Shown here: one piece after another, positions 4,626-62,449 of the stretch
Layout of the letters: every line of letters starts with the position of its first letter
How positions within the stretch are numbered: the stretch's first letter is position 1
Source: Lucinisca nassula
Lineage: Eukaryota > Mollusca > Bivalvia > Lucinida > Lucinidae
Length of the DNA stretch: 64,000 nt
Assembly (NCBI GenBank): GCA_963580285.1
Contig: OY757015.1
Location: forward strand, 130,259,688-130,323,687
Direction of reading: 5' to 3'
Notes under the pieces: generated by a model
Databases searched by the model: none
What the model saw: only the letters and a program-made list of their open reading frames with translations
What the model was told of the DNA's origin: nothing
Made by a program: the position numbers and the translations under genes

Positions 4626-4662
4626 TTATTGGTTTCGGATTTCATCCTTTCAAAATTATTTC

Positions 4663-26510: not shown

Positions 26511-27029
26511 ATTACAATGAAAGAATAACGCGACTATAAATAACCGTTACCTGATTGTTTTACCTGGTTAGCGGTAGCCGCGTGGACAATAGCAGGTGGG
26601 AAGCTTATGTAGTAAGTATCTTTGGATGGACTGACAAAACACCGACCGAACAATTGATCTTACACTAAAAAATTACTAAAGCAGTTCTATAATGTCAGCC
26701 GTCACCACAATGAACATGACTTTTTTTTTCATAATGATCACACATTGATGTAGAGGTGTTCATATAATAGAGGTTGTTAAGTAAAAGTTTGCACTTGGTA
26801 AAAAGCTTGGAATGCTACTTCAATAAAATCTCCGCAGTTTACTAACCTGATCTGACATCGTGCGCATTAATTATGCTGCGTCGACGATTAAAGAGACGCC
26901 ATCGGTCTTAATGACACGCGAACGTGTGTCACGAAATTTCTGACACACAAATTAATTATTTGTAACTAAATGACCTCGAATAAACAGAGGATACATTATA
27001 ATTTTCAATGATAACCGGAAACTGCTTAC
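26511..27029. other. Intron 2 of gene 1, nothing recognised
   Basis: Ordinary AT-rich sequence next to exon 2, with no repeat match found by eye. Confidence 0.4.
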
Positions 27030-27451
27030 CACCATGTTGCTATGAATGGTATCCCAACTATCGCTGTGGCAAGATGAGTAACCCTCCAGTCTTTGAAAAA
27101 CCAGAGTACGGGAACCAGTAGGCAAGCTTCTAGTGACCAACTAGGAAATCCAAGCAACCATGGTCTCCAGCGAGACAGTCCAAACTCCGCCATGTAGTTG
27201 TAGCGAACAGTCAAGAACAGCGCCGTACCAACGCCTATGGCCGCTCTTATTATCGCATACATCAGCCAACTTACAGAGTAGTAGGCGAGCAGATTGAAGG
27301 CAATTAGAACACTGAGTGCCATGAATAATGGGATTTTTCTGCCGACAGCATCCGCAATATGACCGGAGGCAATGTTGCCTAGAAGCTGAAATCCGGTCTG
27401 TAAAGAGCTTATACCAGCTGGTATCCATGCTGTATCACAAACCAAACTCCA
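27030..27451 (-). CDS. Gene 1 exon 2, SLC22-type transporter
   Basis: This 422 bp exon encodes residues from WSLVCDTAWIPAG through PFIATWW, covering transmembrane helices 2 to 6. The family loop motif GHIADAVGRKIPLF is the major facilitator G-x-x-(A)D-x-x-GRK signature between helices 2 and 3. Another landmark is LTVRYNYMAEFGLSRWRPW in helix 4 and the following loop. The acceptor is TGTTTGTTGCAG before 27451 and the donor is GTAAGC from 27029. It enters in phase 0 after TIVDE of exon 1, giving the typical TIV-x-E-W-x-LVCD junction, and leaves in phase 2. The exon is intact. The product should be a plasma-membrane organic ion carrier; the substrate cannot be told from sequence. Confidence 0.95.
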
Positions 27452-53687: not shown

Positions 53688-53999
53688 ATGTCGACTCAGG
53701 AGTCAAGAAAAGGGCCAGATGAGGTTATTCGGGAGCTTGGAGGATGCGGTCGATTTCAGATCCGGATAGCGCTTATTGTACATATGATGAATACAGTAAT
53801 TGCATGGACCTTGTTTGCAGCGATATTTGTCACTGCGGCACCAGATTGGCGGTGCAAGGACGATAGTACGTTGATTTCTAATTATAACTCCACAAGCGCA
53901 ATTAACAAGACATTTGGACAAGTATGTGATAACCACAATGGCACCACGTGTTCGGATATCGAATTTGAAACATCCGGCATGCGAACAATTGTTACTGAG
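53688..53999 (+). CDS. Gene 2 exon 1, SLC22-type transporter (start)
   Basis: This 312 bp exon gives 104 residues from MSTQESRKGPDEVI. RELGGCGRFQIR leads into helix 1 (ALIVHMMNTVIAWTLF), then AAPDWRCKDD opens an extracellular loop with cysteines and sequons NST, NKT and NGT, and the exon ends MRTIVTE. With exon 2 this gives TIVTE-WNLVCD, a conserved SLC22 junction. The donor is GTAAATAT from 54000, phase 0. The start matches that of gene 1 (MTGQETRQGPDEVI), with no plausible upstream ATG in frame. Expected role: plasma-membrane carrier of organic ions; substrate unknown. Confidence 0.93.
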
Positions 54000-54097
54000 G
54001 TAAATATTTATATTAAAATAATGAAAAATATTCATCTTATACAGTATATAGTGCTGCTGCTGCAATTTCTTCTTCTTTTTCTTTTTCCGAGCACCTA

Positions 54098-54184
54098 CAA
54101 CCCATGTTTTAAGCAGGAATAAGAAAATTATCAGATTTTTTTTTTTTTATCTGAAAATTTTCATTTTTCGGTGGTTTCGTAATG
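54098..54184 (-). mobile_element. Pal-type right scrap
   Basis: CCCATGTTTTAAGCAGGAATA..TTTTTCGGTGGTTTCGTAATG, lying in intron 1 of gene 2. Confidence 0.6.
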
Positions 54185-54257
54185 ATACCACCGGTAAAGA
54201 CCTGTTACCGTAATGATCCAAAGTATTGGGACAAACAGGACTAAGAATACAATAAGC

Positions 54258-54562
54258 CACCGCCCATAGGGGCTTAAAGAAATATATGGGCTGCATGATG
54301 CTTCCACGCAGAGCTGAATCCGGCCCGCACACTAGTACTGTTAAACCGCTTAGAGGATCTAAGCCTGTCCAGGAACCGCGGTGCGAGGCGGACCGTCATT
54401 GCTAATAAACCCTATTGGTTTCATTGGACGACAGGGCTTGAGATGTCATTTCATCTCAATGTCGGGTAAAAGTCCGTCAAAATTGGAAGCAACGTCTCCA
54501 AAATGACCTTTACAGTGTTGACGGGGACGTTAAACCTCAAATCAAACAAACAAACAAAACAA
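54258..54562 (+). mobile_element. SINE S1, copy k
   Basis: Head CACCGCCCATAGGGGCTT and tail GACGGGGACGTTAAACCTC plus (CAAA)n. GACTAAGAATACA on the left and GACTAAGAACACA on the right form the target duplication. Confidence 0.92.
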
Positions 54563-54569
54563 AGACTAA

Positions 54570-54842
54570 GAACACAGGCAGACCTAGATCGGACTGCTCC
54601 TAAGCAGTCGGATCAAGGTCTTCACCGTTTGTCATTCCGTCCCCATTATTTCGACTCCTTGCGGAATCGCGAAACATACTTTGTTATTCTGCATAGGCAT
54701 TTGGCCATTGTGAGGGAAAGTAACTGTCCTTGTGACGTTTTCATTACAGCGGAGATTCCTTCCCTTTGGTGAATTGGACGGGGGTTGTGGGGTATTTGAT
54801 CATTTCCTTATCATTGCCTTTACTTCTGTTTTGTGAACATTT
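54570..54842. mobile_element. Worn hairpin and Rep-I fragment
   Basis: 54580-54635 has GACCTAGATCGGACTGCTCC and GCAGTCGGATCAAGGTC. 54690-54835 has AAGTAACTGTCCTTGTGACG and CATTGCCTTTACTTCTG, diverged Rep-I. Confidence 0.6.
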
Positions 54843-55147
54843 CATCACGAAAACACGGCTATATAATTTTGACCCCCTTGAACCCCACCTTTATATAGTA
54901 AAACTGGGGTTTTCGGGGGGTATACCTATTTATTCTTATTTCTGCTCTAAAATATAGATGGTGGGTACTAATTAGAACCGCCACGATGAGGCGGTTCAGA
55001 ACCGCCACGATGAGGCGGTTCTAACGAGTGCCCACAATCTATATTTTGAGCAGTAATAAGAAAAATATCACAGTTTTTCTTCATAAAATTGTCATTTTTT
55101 CGGCGATAAAGGTGGCAATGTATTTGTATAGGCGTGTTTGCGTAATG
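54843..55147 (-). mobile_element. Pal-A MITE with duplicated hairpin tip
   Basis: The tip GAACCGCCACGATGAGGCGGTT occurs twice in tandem (about 54977-55022), so the centre forms two loops. Ends CATCACGAAAACACGG and GGCGTGTTTGCGTAATG. Confidence 0.9.
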
Positions 55148-55257
55148 TTATGAAAATTGTAGTAAGTTCCCAAGGTGTCTGAGTATTTAGCATTTTGATG
55201 GCAATTCTTCATACAACCTCGGTTGCAATAGCTCTTTAATGGACTGATACATGTTTT

Positions 55258-55553
55258 GTTTTTGTTTGTTTGATTTGAGGTTTAACGTCTCCGTCAACAC
55301 TATGTATGTCATTTTGGAGACATTGCTTCCAATTTCGTGAGACATTTACCCGACATTGATATGAAATGATATCTCAATCCTGCCGCCCAATAAAACCAGT
55401 AGGGCTTATATCCATGGACTCGCACTGGTTTGCCTGGGCGGGCTTACACCTTCTAAGTGGTTTACCAGTACTCATATGCGGTCGATTTCAGCTCTGCGTG
55501 GATGCATCATGCAACCCAATCTATTTGACAAAGCCCCGATGAGCGGGGGCCCT
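55258..55553 (-). mobile_element. SINE S1, copy l
   Basis: From (TTTTG)n TTTGATTTGAGGTTTAACG to GATGAGCGGGGGC. It is more diverged than copies m and n. Confidence 0.82.
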
Positions 55554-55568
55554 TGACTGACACATGGA

Positions 55569-55835
55569 TCATGCCAACAAGTCCATGCGATGAAATCCCC
55601 TCTAAACCCACTTTATATTGAGAAAACTTGGGTTTACGGAGGTAAATATTATTCATTATTTCTGCTGCTAGAGACACAGGTTTTGAGTAGTCGTTAGAAC
55701 GGCCTCAATGAGGCGGTTCTAACGAGTACCAAAAACCTGCGTTCTGAGTGTAATCAAGCCAAGTATCACAAATTGTCATCTTTGGAGGTATGAAAGAATG
55801 CACTTTAGGACCCGGATGTGTCATCTTAAGGTGAG
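55569..55835 (-). mobile_element. Pal-B MITE, worn ends
   Basis: CATGCCAACAAGTCCATGCG; core GAACGGCCTCAATGAGGCGG; end CCCGGATGTGTCATCTTAAGG. Confidence 0.78.
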
Positions 55836-55966
55836 AAATGGGTCCTCATAATATCCGATTTATTTTCTCCAAAAAGCCTGATCAGTCAACTAACATGCTA
55901 GGCGCATTACCCTTTGTACGATGCTGCCATAGCGTCTTCTCTTAGTTCAGCGAACACAGCGAAAGC

Positions 55967-56421
55967 CATTAGGAAAGCATGTCCGTGTGGAGTGAGTGAA
56001 TGCTTGGGCTTTACGTCCCACCAACAGCTAAGCTCATACGGAGACAGGACCTCGGTTTAAAGACTCATCCGAAAGTCTGGAGAAGCCCGGGATGGATCCT
56101 GCGATCCCTGGTTTACAAGGCGAGTAACGTAACCACAACACAACGGAGGCTTCTTTGTCCGTGCGGAATAATGGCGTCCAACATGGTCTCAGAAATGACA
56201 CATTTTTGGTCAAAATGAAAACATTTTTCTTATTTCTGCTTTCAACATAGACTGCGGGTGCTCGTTAGAACCGCCTCATTCAGGCGGTTTTAACGAGTAT
56301 CCACAATCAATATTTTCGAGCAAAAAGAAAGACAGATAATGTATACCCTCGTAAACCCCAGTTTTCTTTATATAAAGTGGGGTTTAGTGGGTGTTCATTT
56401 CACCGACTTGTTCACGTCATG
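55967..56421 (+). mobile_element. Pal-C MITE split by SINE-4
   Basis: CATTAGGAAAGCATGTCCGT is at the left, and the insertion follows at once. After it come TGTCCGTGCGGAATAATGGC, the core and CACCGACTTGTTCACGTCATG. Confidence 0.85.
55992..56155 (-). mobile_element. SINE-4 with 12 bp target duplication
   Basis: The minus-strand head has GTTACGTTACTCGCCTTGTA and GGGATCGCAGGATCCATCC, a worn tRNA-like promoter. The tail side reads GTGAGTGAATGCTTGGGC. TGTCCGTGTGGA and TGTCCGTGCGGA flank it. Confidence 0.8.
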
Positions 56422-56462
56422 TCAGGCGATTATTAACAGGCTCGTCTATAGGCTTTTATTTA

Positions 56463-56746
56463 TTATAATAACACACCCGTGTGGCATAGTGCACTCTTTT
56501 ATATCTCCGAAATGGTTACTTTTCGGATGAATAATTTTGATATTTTTCTCATTTATACTCCAAACATAGGTTGCGGGTGCTTGTTAGAATCGCCTCTTAG
56601 AGGCGGTTCTAACAAGCACCCACAACCTTTGTCTTGGAGCAGAAATGAGCAAAATAATGTATATCCGTGTAAAGTCCTTCTTTGTCTATATAAAGGGGAT
56701 GGGGAAGTTGGAATGGTGTTCATTTCACGGACTTTTTAACGTCATG
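56463..56746 (+). mobile_element. Pal-B MITE, complete
   Basis: ATAATAACACACCCGTGTGG to GGACTTTTTAACGTCATG. The tip is CGCCTCTTAGAGGCGG. Confidence 0.85.
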
Positions 56747-56932
56747 TGACGCCGAAAAAATTGGCATACTTTACTCATGAGCTGGTTTAAATTTTGTCGA
56801 AAGTTGGATCAGTAACTGGCGAGAAATCGAAAGCCAAATGCTTGGAAAAGAGCTTTGGCTGCCAAATAATCCGAGACATATCGCTGTAATCCAACTTCAT
56901 ACATTTAGTCTTTCCCTGCCAGTATTACTTCA

Positions 56933-57152
56933 CATTAGGAAAACACGCCTATACCAATACATCGTAAAATTTACCGTCGAAAAAAATGAACATTTTAAGA
57001 TGAAAAAATGTGATATTTTTCTTATTTCTGCGCAAAATATAGATTTTGGAGCAGAAATAAGAAAATTAAGATTTACCCCTGTAAACCCCCGTTTTAGTAT
57101 GTTCAAGTGGGGTTCAATTTGGTAAAGATTAAATAGGCGTGTTTTCTTGATG
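56933..57152 (+). mobile_element. Pal-A MITE without hairpin tip
   Basis: CATTAGGAAAACACGCC to GGCGTGTTTTCTTGATG. The core is reduced to ATAGATTTTGGAGCAG, so about 65 bp of hairpin are missing. Confidence 0.85.
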
Positions 57153-57386
57153 CAATACATTGTAAATTTCACCGCCGAAAAAAAAAAAAAAAAGAAAATT
57201 TTAAGATGAAAAAATGTGAAATTTTTCTTATTTCTGCTCGGCGAGGCGGTTCTAACGTTTACCCACAATCTATATTTTGAGCAGAAAACAGAAAAGTAAT
57301 GTTTACCCCTGTAAACCCCAGTTTTACTATATAAACGTGGGTCTCAAGGTGGGAGGTCAAAATTATATAGGCGTGTTTTCGTGATG
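57153..57386 (+). mobile_element. Pal-A MITE in tandem, left end and one core arm missing
   Basis: It starts CAATACATTGTAAATTTCACC directly after the previous copy, lacks the left core arm (TTTCTGCTCGGCGAGGCGG), and ends GGCGTGTTTTCGTGATG. Confidence 0.85.
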
Positions 57387-57443
57387 ACACCGAAGAAGCC
57401 AGGACCAAAATAATATTAAACAACACGAATATGCTCAACACGA

Positions 57444-57593
57444 GTGAGTGTTTGAGTTTTACGTCCAACCAACGGCTAAGGTCATACGGAGACGGGACCT
57501 CGGTTTTAAAGACTTATCCGAAAGTCCGGAATCGATCCTGCGATCCCTGGTTTACAAGGCGAGTAGCGTAACCACTGCACCACGGAGGTTCTG
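57444..57593 (-). mobile_element. SINE-4, best copy, with target duplication
   Basis: On the minus strand: GGTGCAGTGGTTACGCTACT (box A region), then CAGGGATCGCAGGATCGATT (box B region), then CGAGGTCCCGTCTCCGTATG and a tail ending AAACACTCACT. TGCTCAACACGA and TGCTTAACACGA flank it (57432 and 57594). Confidence 0.85.
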
Positions 57594-57763
57594 TGCTTAA
57601 CACGAAAGAACATATATACATGTACAAAAACAAAGCACGGTTGGAATTCTAGCATGATAGAGAATATAGCTCTTTTGTGAAGTACTTTCGGATACGAATA
57701 GTGTCTTACGAACATGCTACTTCAATGTCCTCCAATGTCCTCAAACGACTGCTTTGGCCACGT

Positions 57764-58064
57764 TTGTTTGTTTGTTTGCTTTGAGGTTTAACGTCCCCGT
57801 CAACACTGTAAAGGTCATTTTGGAGACGTTGCTTCCAATTTTGTGGGACTTTTACCCGACATTGAGATGATATGACATTTCAAGCCCTGTCGCCCAATGA
57901 AACCAATAGGGTTTATTAGCATGGACGGTCCGCCTCGCACCGCGGTTCCTGGACAGGCTTAGAACCTCTAAGCGGTTTACCAGTACTAGTGTGCGGGCCG
58001 GATTCAGCTCTGCGCGGAAGCATCATGCAGCCCATATATTTCTTCAAGCCCCTATGGGCGGGGG
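57764..58064 (-). mobile_element. SINE S1, copy m, with 12 bp target duplication
   Basis: Complete, from (TTTG)n to CCCCTATGGGCGGGGG. CTTTGGCCACGT is repeated at 57752-57763 and 58065-58076. It is very close to copy n, so a recent insertion is likely. Confidence 0.95.
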
Positions 58065-58383
58065 CTTTGGCCACGTAATGTGCGTGATAATATTGGACAC
58101 GATGTTATTTCTTAATAAGTCCCTTAACAAAAAAAAATCTGATTGAGAAAATAACTGATATTTTTCGATATATTACATTATATATAATAATAGCAAGATT
58201 GCGAATATGAAACACAGATAGTAAGTTTTACACCACTTTCGGTAATTTCAACAAACATGGAAACCCTAATCAAATGCCGCAATCTGTGGTGTATGATCAT
58301 TATCTTCATTGTTTGCAACTGTCGCTATGCACACACTGGTTTACTCCTTTACTGTAAAAGATGTTCTCTGCAATTTATTTCAG

Positions 58384-58805
58384 TGGAATCTGGTGTGCGA
58401 CATGGCGTGGATACCAGCCCTAATCAATTCTGTACAAGTAGGATGCCAGCTCTTCGGAAATCTTTTTGCAGGCCATCTAGCTGATTATGTAGGAAGGAAA
58501 ATTCCCTTGTTTCTATCCATTGCTACACTAATAGTGTGCAATCTCCTGTCCTACTTTTCTGTTAACTGGTTTATGTATGCGATTTCCAAAGCACTTACTG
58601 GAATTGGGACCGGTATGTTTCTCACAGTGCGATACAACTTCATGTCAGAATTTGCTCTAGCCCGTTGGCGGCCTTGGCTGATTGGCTTCCCAACCTGGCC
58701 GATACAGAGCTGCGTTTTGTGTTTGTTTCTATGGTTGCTGAAGGACTGGAGAAATACCCATCTTCTTATTGCTGTCGTTGGGGTTCCGTTTCTAGGAGCC
58801 TGGTG
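58384..58805 (+). CDS. Gene 2 exon 2, SLC22-type transporter
   Basis: This 422 bp exon runs from WNLVCDMAWIPALIN to PFLGAWW. It covers helices 2-6 with the major facilitator loop GHLADYVGRKIPLF, then LLSYFSVNWFMYAI, GIGTGMFLTVRYNFMSEF and LARWRPWLIGF. The acceptor is CAATTTATTTCAG before 58384, phase 0. The donor is GTAAGT from 58806, phase 2. Length and phases equal those of gene 1 exon 2. The donor lies inside a target duplication made by an S1 insertion, so an identical second donor motif sits 311 bp downstream (59117). The upstream donor keeps the reading frame. Confidence 0.95.
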
Positions 58806-58810
58806 GTAAG
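58799..58810 (+). promoter_or_regulatory. Duplicated splice donor, proximal copy
   Basis: CCTGGTGGTAAG contains the exon 2 end TGGTG and the donor GTAAG. It is the left target duplication of S1 copy n. The base after it now comes from the SINE tail (T), giving GTAAGT, a stronger match to the donor consensus than GTAAGA. Confidence 0.85.
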
Positions 58811-59109
58811 TTTTTGTTTGATTTGAGGTTTAACGTCCCCGTCAACACTGTAAAGGTCATTTTGGAGACGTTGCTTCCAATTTTTTGGGACTTTTACCCG
58901 ACATTGAGATGAAATGACATCTCAAGCCCTGTCGCCCAATAAAACCAATAAGGTTTATTAGCATGGACGGTCCGCCTCGCACCGCGGTTCCTGGACAGGC
59001 TTAGATCCTCTAAGCGGTTTACCAGTACTAGTGTGCGGGCCAGATTCAGCTCTGCGTGGAAGCATCATGCAGCCCATATATTTCTTCAAGCCCCTATGGG
59101 CGGGGGCCC
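58811..59109 (-). mobile_element. SINE S1, copy n, on the exon 2 donor of gene 2
   Basis: A complete S1 in antisense to gene 2. It starts with TTTTTGTTTGATTTGAGG and ends GGGCGGGGGCCC. CCTGGTGGTAAG flanks it at 58799-58810 and 59110-59121. Confidence 0.95.
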
Positions 59110-59121
59110 CCTGGTGGTAAG
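59110..59121 (+). promoter_or_regulatory. Duplicated splice donor, distal copy
   Basis: The right target duplication, followed by the original intron (AAATATCAC). Use of this donor would read through the exon end and put the SINE in the transcript. The stop codon TAA at 58807 would then come directly after the second Trp codon. Confidence 0.8.
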
Positions 59122-59240
59122 AAATATCACATATGTTATAAACGCGAGTACAGATGCATCTTTATAACGACAGTATTTGTTGCCTAATATTTTGCCATTA
59201 TAAACACTGTGTCGCTGTAAAGAATCTCAATAAGGAGTGC

Positions 59241-59514
59241 TATTACGAAAACACGCCTATACAAATTCAGTGTAACCTTTATCGCCGAAAAAAAAATTGA
59301 GATGAAAAATTGGGATATTATTCTTATTTCTGCTCAAATATAGATTGTGGGTACTCGTTAGAACCGCCTCATCGAGGCGGTTCTAACGTGTACCCACAGT
59401 CTATATTTTAGAGCAGACATAAGAAAAATAAGGTTTACCCCTGTAAACCCCAGTTTGACTATAGAAAAGTGGGGTTTAAGGGGGTCAAAATTATATAGAC
59501 GTGTTTTCGTAATG
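59241..59514 (+). mobile_element. Pal-A MITE, complete
   Basis: TATTACGAAAACACGCC to GACGTGTTTTCGTAATG. The core CCGCCTCATCGAGGCGG is perfect. Intron 2 of gene 2. Confidence 0.92.
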
Positions 59515-60226
59515 TATAATAAGAAGTAAAGGGCCGGGTTTTTTTTCTCCTTATTCCAAATAACACATGCTGTGGAGATTTGCAAGAATCACCTCGCCGA
59601 AGAGACAGGTATTGTAATCATTTGTTAGAATCTCCTCATTGAGGCGATTCTAACAAAATGCCACAATTATATATAATTTTTATTTACATGTATTTTTTAT
59701 TTTATTTTATTTCATTTTTATTTGCATGCTCCTTAGAATTGGTGATTATACAACCGCCAACTAACAGTTGACATCTCTCGTCGGATCATTTATGTGTAAA
59801 TATTTCAAAACACAATGACACGCTGAAAAAGAATTTCGTCACAAGTGAAATATTTGTTAAAGGTACAATAATTTAGCACATTCAATACTGGTAAATTCCG
59901 CTTGTCACAGAAAGTTGGGGCGGAGCTTAGCGATTGTCAAAAAATCTACACCACTGCAATCCCGCCTTCTTCAGATTTGTGCTGCATATTAAAAAGTCGT
60001 TCCGCATATCTAATACCTGTTCAGAAGCGTATGATAGAAAGTTCAGTACGCTGCGACATAGCTTTCCACGCGTCTTTGATTTTCGTTGCAAACAGCATCA
60101 AACCTACGATGGGCAGACGTCTTATTGTCTAAACTGCTGGTTAAGTGGTTAAAAAGACCTAGCAAAAGTCTATGTTGTTAAAAAAAGACTAACGTTCGAC
60201 AGTAGTAGTCGTCAATGATGGTGGTT
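59515..60226. other. Intron 2 of gene 2; small hairpin at 59620-59660
   Basis: TTGTTAGAATCTCCTCATTG and GAGGCGATTCTAACAAA form a hairpin like the tip of the Pal core but with other flanks. (TTTTA)n near 59690-59725. Overlapping plus frames at 59902-60152 show no domain. Confidence 0.55.
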
Positions 60227-60312
60227 GGGTGAGGCAAAATTGACGTGTATCTTGCGTCACTACGACAGTCAATTGATATTGGCTTACAGTCGGGCAAGGC
60301 CTGCTGTCTTTG
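60227..60312. repeat. ~90 bp dispersed repeat, second copy
   Basis: GGTGAGGCAAAATTGACGTG through CGGGCAAGGCCTGCTGTCTT matches 20285-20375. A Rep-I end (GAAGTGAAGGCAATGATCAG) follows at 60427-60485. Confidence 0.6.
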
Positions 60313-60539
60313 ACACTGGACAAAAATATGGGCGAAAACAGCAATGTTAAATCAGAAGAACAGAGTGTGTACTGTAAAGTACGCGCATTGCCAGACGTAT
60401 CGCCTTTGGGGATAAAAAAAAAATAGAAGTGAAGGCAATGATCAGGAATCGATACAATTAACCACCAGCACACATCAGAGAAACCAAAGCCGATTTAGAT
60501 AAAGTTTATGATGAAAATGCACTATTGTATCAAACAGTT

Positions 60540-61480
60540 TGCATATGTGTGCAACTTTTCATAGGTGGACGAACTTCATTCAAAGATGAGCCGCGGAGGG
60601 TCAACCGTTTTCAGCAGTGTCCGAAAAAGAAATCGAGATTGTGAAAACGGCAGTTGAAGAAGATCCGCGGTACATTGAATTTTTTAACGTGATTTCGTCG
60701 GCCGTATTTTATATATTGAAGTAGTATTTAAGCTGAAGGTTTGTGCTAGGTGGATCTCCCATCTTTTGACACCTGAACAAAAGGGAGTAAGGGTAAAGCC
60801 ACATAACTTCTACTAAAATATAAGGATGCGGATCCTAGGAGACTCAGAGAAATTGTAACTAGAGAGGAAACGTGGATGTAATTTTTAACCCAATTGCAAA
60901 GAAAACAAAGTTTGGGTAGGTGAAAAATGGCGAAAGACCTCAAATCGCGCGGAGAAATAAGACTTCGAGGCGTGTCATATACGCTCTTTTTTTTTTTTTT
61001 TTTTTTTTTTTTGACTGCGAAGCAATAGTGGCCCGAGTACCAGTGCCTGAGAACAAGAATGTCACAGAATGATTTCATAAAGAGAAACATCTTTCTGCTG
61101 TGGTGGACCACTATTTGCAGTTGCAAAGCGCCCACGAAAGGGGTATGTGCTTTTCATATTCTTCATGATAACGCCCCTGTGTGCAGATCAGCCGTGGTGC
61201 TCGAATATTTTGAGGACTTAAACATTAAAACTTTACCACATCCTCCATACAGTCCAGACCTTTCTCCTTGTGATTTCTAGCTCAACCCATATATTAAAAC
61301 ATGTTTGCGACGACGTCGTATTGACAGTCGCCATACCTTGGGTGGTGCGTTTTTCTAGTGTATAAACAGTACACCGCAAAAAGTGCTTCAAAATACATTA
61401 TCTAAGTGGATGAAAAGACTGGAAAAGTGCGCACAGGTCAAATGGAAATACTTCGAGGGACACCACTAGTTCGTTTTGAA
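60540..61480 (+). pseudogene. Mariner transposase, decayed
   Basis: Pieces in several frames read GRTSFKDEPRR, then ARWISHLLTPEQKGVRVK, then LHDNAPVCRSAVVLEYFE and LPHPPYSPDLSPCDF before a stop. The last two blocks hold the second and third catalytic aspartates with 34 residues between them, the DD34D spacing of mariner transposases. Many stops and shifts and a poly(T) run of about 26 bases (60987-61012) in the middle show it is dead. It lies in intron 2 of gene 2, same strand. Confidence 0.85.
60987..61012. repeat. Poly(T) run inside the mariner remnant
   Basis: About 26 T in a row, with no matching retro-insert recognised. Confidence 0.9.
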
Positions 61481-61592
61481 CCGGTAAGCCTTATTTTTAC
61501 AAGCCGCACCCGCTATTAATACTTTTCAAACGCCCCTCGTATTTTGTATCGACGCGATATGGTCTTTTCAACCTTTATCAAAAACCTGATTA

Positions 61593-61832
61593 CATCACGT
61601 GACCAAGTCCGTGAAATAAAGCACGGGGGTAAACATTATTTTCCTTATTTCTGCTCCAAGACAGAGGTTGTCGATACTCGTTAGAACCGCCTCAATTAGG
61701 CGGTTCTAACGAGCACACAAAACCTATGTTTGGAGTATAAATAAGGAAAATGTAACAAATTTTCATCAGAAAAATTACCATTTTTGTATTTTGAAAAAAT
61801 TCACTATATCACACGGATACCTAATCTTAATG
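61593..61832 (-). mobile_element. Pal-B MITE next to exon 3 of gene 2
   Basis: CATCACGTGACCAAGTCCGT to CACGGATACCTAATCTTAATG. Part of the right arm is deleted. It ends only 35 bp before the exon 3 acceptor, so the polypyrimidine stretch and probable branch region lie directly against it. Confidence 0.85.
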
Positions 61833-61867
61833 AGAATAGAATTTTCCTGCATTTGTTTTATATCTAG

Positions 61868-62101
61868 GGCTGTACCTGAAAGTTTTCGATGGTACTATGC
61901 TCATGATAGAATAGACGAAGCGGAGAGAGTGATAACAACTATATCGAAGGTCAATCATCGCCCTGTACCAGATATGTCATACATGAAGCAGTTGACAGTG
62001 GCCAATCTAGACGAAAACAAGACGGACAGGAAGTACACAGCGCTGGATCTTTTCAAATCTATGTTTTTAACGAAAGTGACTCTGTTATTGTTTCTTAACT
62101 G
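61868..62101 (+). CDS. Gene 2 exon 3, SLC22-type transporter
   Basis: This 234 bp exon encodes AVPESFRWYYAHDRI, EAERVITTISKVNHR, DENKTDRKYTALDLF and LLLFLNW. It carries the P-E-S-x-RW signature and the large cytoplasmic loop. The acceptor is TTTTATATCTAG before 61868 and the donor is GTAAGAC from 62102, phase 2 in and 2 out, exactly as in gene 1. TG at the end of exon 2 plus G here gives the second Trp of WW. The next exon (helices 7-8) was not found before 64000. Confidence 0.93.
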
Positions 62102-62174: not shown

Positions 62175-62449
62175 CATCACGGGAACAAGTCCGTGAAATG
62201 AAGACCCCACTAAACCCCATTTTATATAAAGAAAACTGGGGTTTACAGGTATAGGGTATACATTATTTTTCTTATTTCTACTCCAAGACATAGGTTGTGA
62301 GTACTCGATAGAATGAGGCGGTTCTAACAAGCACCCACAACCTATGTTTGGAGTACAAATAAGCAAACTATCACAATTTTTCATGAAAAATCTACCACTT
62401 TGGAAATATGAAAGAATGCACTATTTCCCACGGATGCGTTGTCGTAATT
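62175..62449 (-). mobile_element. Pal-B MITE, core tip reduced
   Basis: CATCACGGGAACAAGTCCGT to CACGGATGCGTTGTCGTAAT. The left core arm has lost CCGCCTC (CTCGATAGAATGAGGCGG). It lies 73 bp after exon 3 of gene 2. Confidence 0.85.

Follow-up and report, generated by a model that had tools for sequence, protein, structure and literature searches.

That a SINE can duplicate a splice boundary is already known for an acceptor: in dog merle, a SINE lies antisense at the boundary of PMEL intron 10 and exon 11, flanked by a 15-bp target duplication and showing a T-run on its upstream side; it strikes the acceptor, carries a cryptic acceptor, and disturbs splicing in a manner dependent on the length of its tail (PMC7349775). 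Introners are mobile insertions whose target duplication supplies a splice site and which create a new intron; by the reading of that paper they are mostly DNA elements (PMC9860276). For Alu, a retroposon-derived pyrimidine tract downstream of a donor inside the exonised element enhances this donor (PMC2766253). Some bivalve genomes are rich in SINEs, and the curated bivalve SINEs (V, Meta, Deu, MIR and Core) are 174-404 bp long and were required to have a detectable tRNA-like head (PMC10294476). In a search of the open-licence literature, we found no account of a donor doubled through the target duplication of a SINE.

Here we describe an element, S1, which most likely converted a single donor into two in an SLC22-like transporter gene (gene 2) of Lucinisca nassula. 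The analysis is based on a stretch of 64,000 nucleotides (the window), whose numbering is used throughout. As in merle, the element occupies a splice boundary in antisense orientation, its target duplication is short and a T-run lies upstream; unlike in merle, it strikes a donor, and the antisense tail sits where help is expected. S1 shares with introners a target duplication that supplies a splice site, but the intron is old and the donor alone was doubled, by a retroposon. Similar to the Alu tract, a retroposon-derived pyrimidine tract follows a donor, here the host gene's own. The length of S1 is comparable to that of the curated bivalve SINEs and the host is of bivalve type, a likeness by description; no tRNA-like head was detected in S1 with Rfam or ARAGORN, and we assign S1 to none of these groups. 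What this locus adds is an antisense tail landing where the correct donor should gain strength. The features are the following (slashes mark exon ends).

27029..27451, minus strand: match of the neighbouring paralogue, gene 1, to exon 2, with a single donor TGGTG/GTAAGCAG and an intron 2 without S1
53688..53999, plus strand: coding part of exon 1 of gene 2 (open frame from ATG, tblastn match, donor GAG/GTAAAT)
57751-58076, same orientation as the S1 copy at exon 2: a further young copy of S1, located in intron 1 of gene 2 and flanked by a 13-bp duplication GCTTTGGCCACGT
58384..58805, plus strand: exon 2, its last bases inside the duplicated target (open frame, AG acceptor, homology)
58799..58810, plus strand: upstream target-duplication copy CCTGGTGGTAAG (repeat search)
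58806..58811, plus strand: upstream donor GTAAGT (sequence, U1 duplex)
58811..58825, plus strand: U-rich tract immediately past the upstream donor, complementary to the S1 tail (sequence)
58811..59109, minus strand: S1 element in antisense orientation to gene 2; the (CAAA)n-type tail is at 58811 and the head at 59109 (blastn matches)
59110..59121, plus strand: downstream target-duplication copy (repeat search)
59117..59122, plus strand: downstream donor GTAAGA (U1 duplex; paralogue L041 with GTAAGAAA)
61868..62101, plus strand: exon 3, joined in phase to 58805 (homology)

Together with five further exons downstream on the same contig (exons 4-8, reaching 103303), gene 2 consists of eight exons in one open frame of 506 residues with no inner stop, and all seven introns are bounded by GT and AG. 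There was no sign of a pseudogene, the frame being open across the eight exons. The protein matches Pfam PF00083 (Sugar_tr) and PF07690 (MFS_1), and its best solved structure is organic cation/carnitine transporter 2 (E 2e-36). SLC22 organic ion transporters are characterised by an MFS fold and by SLC22 members as nearest relatives, and the protein shows both. Among the best 120 of 285 protein hits, the nearest named proteins were bivalve organic cation transporters and none exceeded 59% identity; the product of gene 2 itself is thus absent from these 120. A 517-aa protein encoded on a 2-kb contig was 58-59% identical. The two SLC22-like paralogues of the window are arranged head to head, with tblastn matches at 5666-34461 (minus strand) and 53688-62101 (plus strand).

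The initial annotation had placed the end of exon 2 at 58805 and the start of exon 3 at 61868. These positions join in phase, and the residues GAWWAVPESFRW across the junction aligned without gap in 9/9 homologues chosen from the 285 hits, which sets the end of exon 2 at 58805 and its donor as the GTAAG at 58806-58810. The two copies of the 12-mer CCTGGTGGTAAG (58799-58810 and 59110-59121) are exact and form the sole direct-repeat family of at least 10 nt within 58600-59300. The 299 bp separating them correspond to one full S1 copy. Exon 2 contributes its final seven bases to the 12-mer and the GTAAG donor makes up the rest, so that a complete 5' splice site stands on each side of S1, with a spacing of 311 bp. 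The upstream donor takes positions +1 to +5 from the target, and its +6 T belongs to the S1 tail; at the downstream copy, +6 is A, and the GTAAGA found there presumably represents the ancestral donor context. Identical 12-bp flanks, a complete donor on either side owing to the target duplication, and a gain at +6 of the proximal donor (GTAAGT) had all been proposed before and were recovered here. The antisense orientation of S1 relative to the gene had been missed. Due to this orientation, the A-rich tail reads as TTTTTGTTTG immediately behind the upstream target copy, which supplies the upstream donor with T, the consensus base, at +6 and with a U-rich tract, TTTTTGTTTGATTTG.

Read in its own sense, S1 starts with GCCCCCGCCC and finishes with CAAATCAAACAAA(CAAA)n, the (CAAA)n-type tails differing in length between copies. 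By blastn, 17 matches were found inside the window (this copy counted, some partial). Across the genome there were 42 matches, a count coming from 40 scored out of 339 candidates. The 2.9-Gb genome contains 108,203 exact occurrences of a 23-mer from the tail. Where flanks were read, 26 of 46 copies have target duplications of 8-15 bp, while none was found in the other 20; 16 of the 26 measured 12-14 bp, and the 12 bp seen at exon 2 are thus a typical length. Five duplications of 8-9 bp could be chance. Ten S1 tails (L045, L047-L050, L054, L057, L059, L062, L064) share a GGYAGGTAAGTTTGATTTGAGG context and have no target duplication; perhaps they represent a sub-lineage or a tail repeat.

The element is short (299 bp), non-coding, dispersed and of very high copy number, and it has variable-length target duplications and an A-rich, simple-repeat 3' tail, as expected of a SINE. 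Searched at E values of up to 5, Rfam yielded no tRNA-, 5S- or 7SL-like Pol III head, and ARAGORN over 57700-59200 detected no tRNA-like head; the head is possibly degenerate. A neighbouring S1 copy weakly matched the 3' end of the UnaL2 LINE (18.4 bits versus a curated cut-off of 55, E 3.3). The SINE label of the initial annotation thus designates a putative SINE, recognised by tail, target duplication and dispersal. This copy differs from a rough consensus of 28 copies at 5/295 bases (1.7%), the lowest value among the 28; the copies were collected through similarity to this same copy, so that the low divergence gives merely a hint that the insertion at the exon 2 donor may be recent.

Based on the tail and the target duplication, S1 would have entered the exon 2/intron 2 boundary via target-primed reverse transcription: a staggered cut would span the donor, and its repair would write CCTGGTGGTAAG onto both sides. 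Alternatively, the two 12-mers might match by chance, or might stem from an earlier tandem duplication that S1 invaded afterwards. Tandem duplication of a donor does occur in this gene, as a 30-bp minisatellite has multiplied another one; the CCTGGTGGTAAG copies, however, abut both ends of S1 exactly, have a length typical of S1 duplications, and face a single donor in each of 16 paralogous copies within the stretch read. These observations argue so strongly against a chance or tandem origin that we give it next to no probability.

The multiplied donor is that of exon 6, which lies inside an 8.5-copy minisatellite of 30-bp units (L010:6115-6369, corresponding to 80115-80369 in window numbering, past the window end). 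The end of exon 6 and a GT recur, with point changes, in all eight full units, five of which keep CAGGTAAAT intact. Beyond the first exon 6 donor the frame runs into TAA, and gene 1 has a single donor at the corresponding place within the 90 bases read. Donors of gene 2 are duplicated by two unrelated processes, and in both cases the first donor keeps the frame. Intron 2 and its surroundings further contain fold-back repeats (59333-59411, 61661-61729 and 62288-62347; core GTTAGAACCGCCTC/GAGGCGGTTCTAAC), probably a separate dispersed family. On the plus strand at about 60100-61500, intron 2 holds frames (HDNAP...YSPDLSPCDF) which we take to resemble a broken mariner-like transposase.

The state before insertion was approached through the paralogues. 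Genome-wide, exon 2 has 23 protein-level matches including gene 2 itself, 17 of them on contig C2. The donor region was read for 16 of the 22 others (gene 1 in the window, L041 and 14 fetched stretches), the remaining six being partial or distant. All 16 have a single donor and no S1 within the stretch read. The initial annotation had named two donor copies lacking the SINE at an outgroup locus as the observation that would speak against it; no such pair was found in the paralogues within the stretch read. Their donor is at TGGTG/GT in 14 copies and at GCT/GTGAG in two (L092, L093); among the 14, that of L099, GTTAGT, was judged by eye. In gene 1 (across 3.5 kb) and in L041 (across 1.5 kb beyond the donor), TGGTGGTAAG is single and S1 absent; in the other 14, about 75-80 intron bases each were read. 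The donor context of L041 is GTAAGAAA, as inferred for the empty site, and it runs on as GTAAGAAAAC, resembling the sequence right of S1 in gene 2, GTAAGAAATATC. The proposed pre-insertion site thus has a natural counterpart. A DNA search with exon 2 revealed no second haplotype with an empty site in this assembly, as the sole other match was a paralogue of 66% identity. Given an S1-free donor at the same place in 14 of the 16 copies, and nearby in two, the insertion did not create a new intron in the manner of an introner. Together, S1-free paralogues with one donor and an exon end supported by homologues indicate that one donor most likely became two via the insertion.

It may be asked whether S1 prefers donor-like targets, so that a donor insertion would reflect target choice and not accident. 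GGTRAGTTT precedes the S1 tail at 182 places in the genome, compared to 148 for a scrambled motif, but of the 30 donor-like places first examined, ten have one common GGYAGGTAAG context and no target duplication, so that the excess of 34 may be a repeat effect. Moreover, the recovered S1 targets have no evident common sequence except a weak T ahead of the cut. With these counts and the shared repeat context, S1 displays no visible donor seeking; targeting is unsupported by the comparison with the scrambled motif, and we regard it as very improbable. Before selection, approximately 50 such donor insertions would be expected, an estimate that takes the 108,203 tail matches as insertions, assumes approximately 200,000 introns and allows seven positions for a 12-bp duplication to include the donor core.

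Visual inspection, together with frame length, was applied to 48 (30 + 18) of the 182 donor-like places. In 17 of them, the whole GGTRAG lies within a target duplication no shorter than 9 bases, including three in one common repeat context (L066, L079, L086); by the same inspection, none of the 17 was shown to end a coding exon. At L065 (G000:C3:42148658; L072 near base 4650), S1 stands behind a signal-peptide-like frame, MKTLIFHSFLAVAFFVQ, that ends exactly at GTAAG. The duplication, GTTCAGGTAA, is just 10 bases long, and visual inspection of about 15 kb downstream revealed no further exon. L065 is a possible second donor insertion, in a signal-peptide exon.

Next we considered which of the two donors is likely to be used. 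The upstream copy GTG/GTAAGTTT gave a U1 pairing energy of -9.1 kcal/mol and the downstream copy GTG/GTAAGAAA -8.0 kcal/mol, the latter being equal to the donors of exon 3 and of gene 1; the next-best candidates in 58600-59300 were overlapping CTG/GTGGTAAG sites at -7.4, followed by one at -5.5. Read through the upstream donor, the frame gives TGG TAA, with the stop TAA at 58807-58809 and further stops within S1. The immediate stop predicted earlier for the distal donor is thus confirmed, and would arise at every phase-2 intron whose donor begins with GTAA. In older studies of duplicated donors, the one closer to the 3' splice site was often preferred. A reference title on the activation of proximal sites by SF2 is cited within PMC8724738. 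In a reporter library in human cells, the first of two tandem donors was mainly used if both were consensus, and the stronger was favoured if they were unequal, for variable regions of 147-162 nt as compared to 311 nt here (PMC6783452). In Alu exons, a pyrimidine tract after the upstream donor favours this donor even if the downstream one is stronger, an effect that acts via TIA proteins; in 22 eukaryotes, donors are enriched for a tract of this type on their downstream side (PMC2766253).

An insertion that is not harmless would use the downstream donor often enough to render a good share of the transcripts unproductive, and the allele would be hypomorphic or regulated. The downstream copy is a complete donor with a U1 pairing equal to that of the exon 3 and gene 1 donors, and the antisense SINE with its 15-bp target duplication at the merle acceptor does alter splicing, in dependence on tail length (PMC7349775). 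Yet the upstream donor is the stronger, the first in order and the one followed by the U-rich tract, a combination favoured by published data; furthermore, the downstream copy repeats just seven exon bases, so that the exon 2 enhancers are presumably not duplicated with it. On balance, we consider such a damaging insertion rather unlikely.

The +6 T and the U-rich tract behind the upstream copy most likely make the upstream donor the preferred one. It would be used nearly always, leaving exon 2 and the protein unaltered, and the SINE would leave with intron 2. Use of the downstream donor would retain S1 in an exon of 733 nt that runs into a stop at once, and nonsense-mediated decay would probably follow. 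Judged from the DNA, normal splicing probably continues after the insertion, which would then be harmless. We hold with considerable confidence the account as a whole, namely that S1 doubled the donor by target duplication and that splicing most likely starts from the upstream donor in nearly all cases.

The locus may serve as a clear natural example of retroposition rescuing, by its own repair step, the splice signal that it struck. Target duplication can save a donor, which is short and self-contained, but probably not an acceptor with its upstream tract. More tentatively, and with the odds in our judgement rather against it, antisense insertions of A-tailed retroposons into donors might be self-repairing by geometry, with a duplication that restores the donor and a tail whose T-rich complement strengthens the upstream copy. 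If true, the +6 T and a U-rich tract of the TIA type would always make the correct, upstream copy the stronger one, whereas sense insertions would place the head of the element there instead and acceptors would be without such help. Surviving donor insertions should then be mostly antisense, a countable prediction of orientation bias among retroposons with target duplications spanning donors; with more than 100,000 S1 tails, the genome should contain a number of them.
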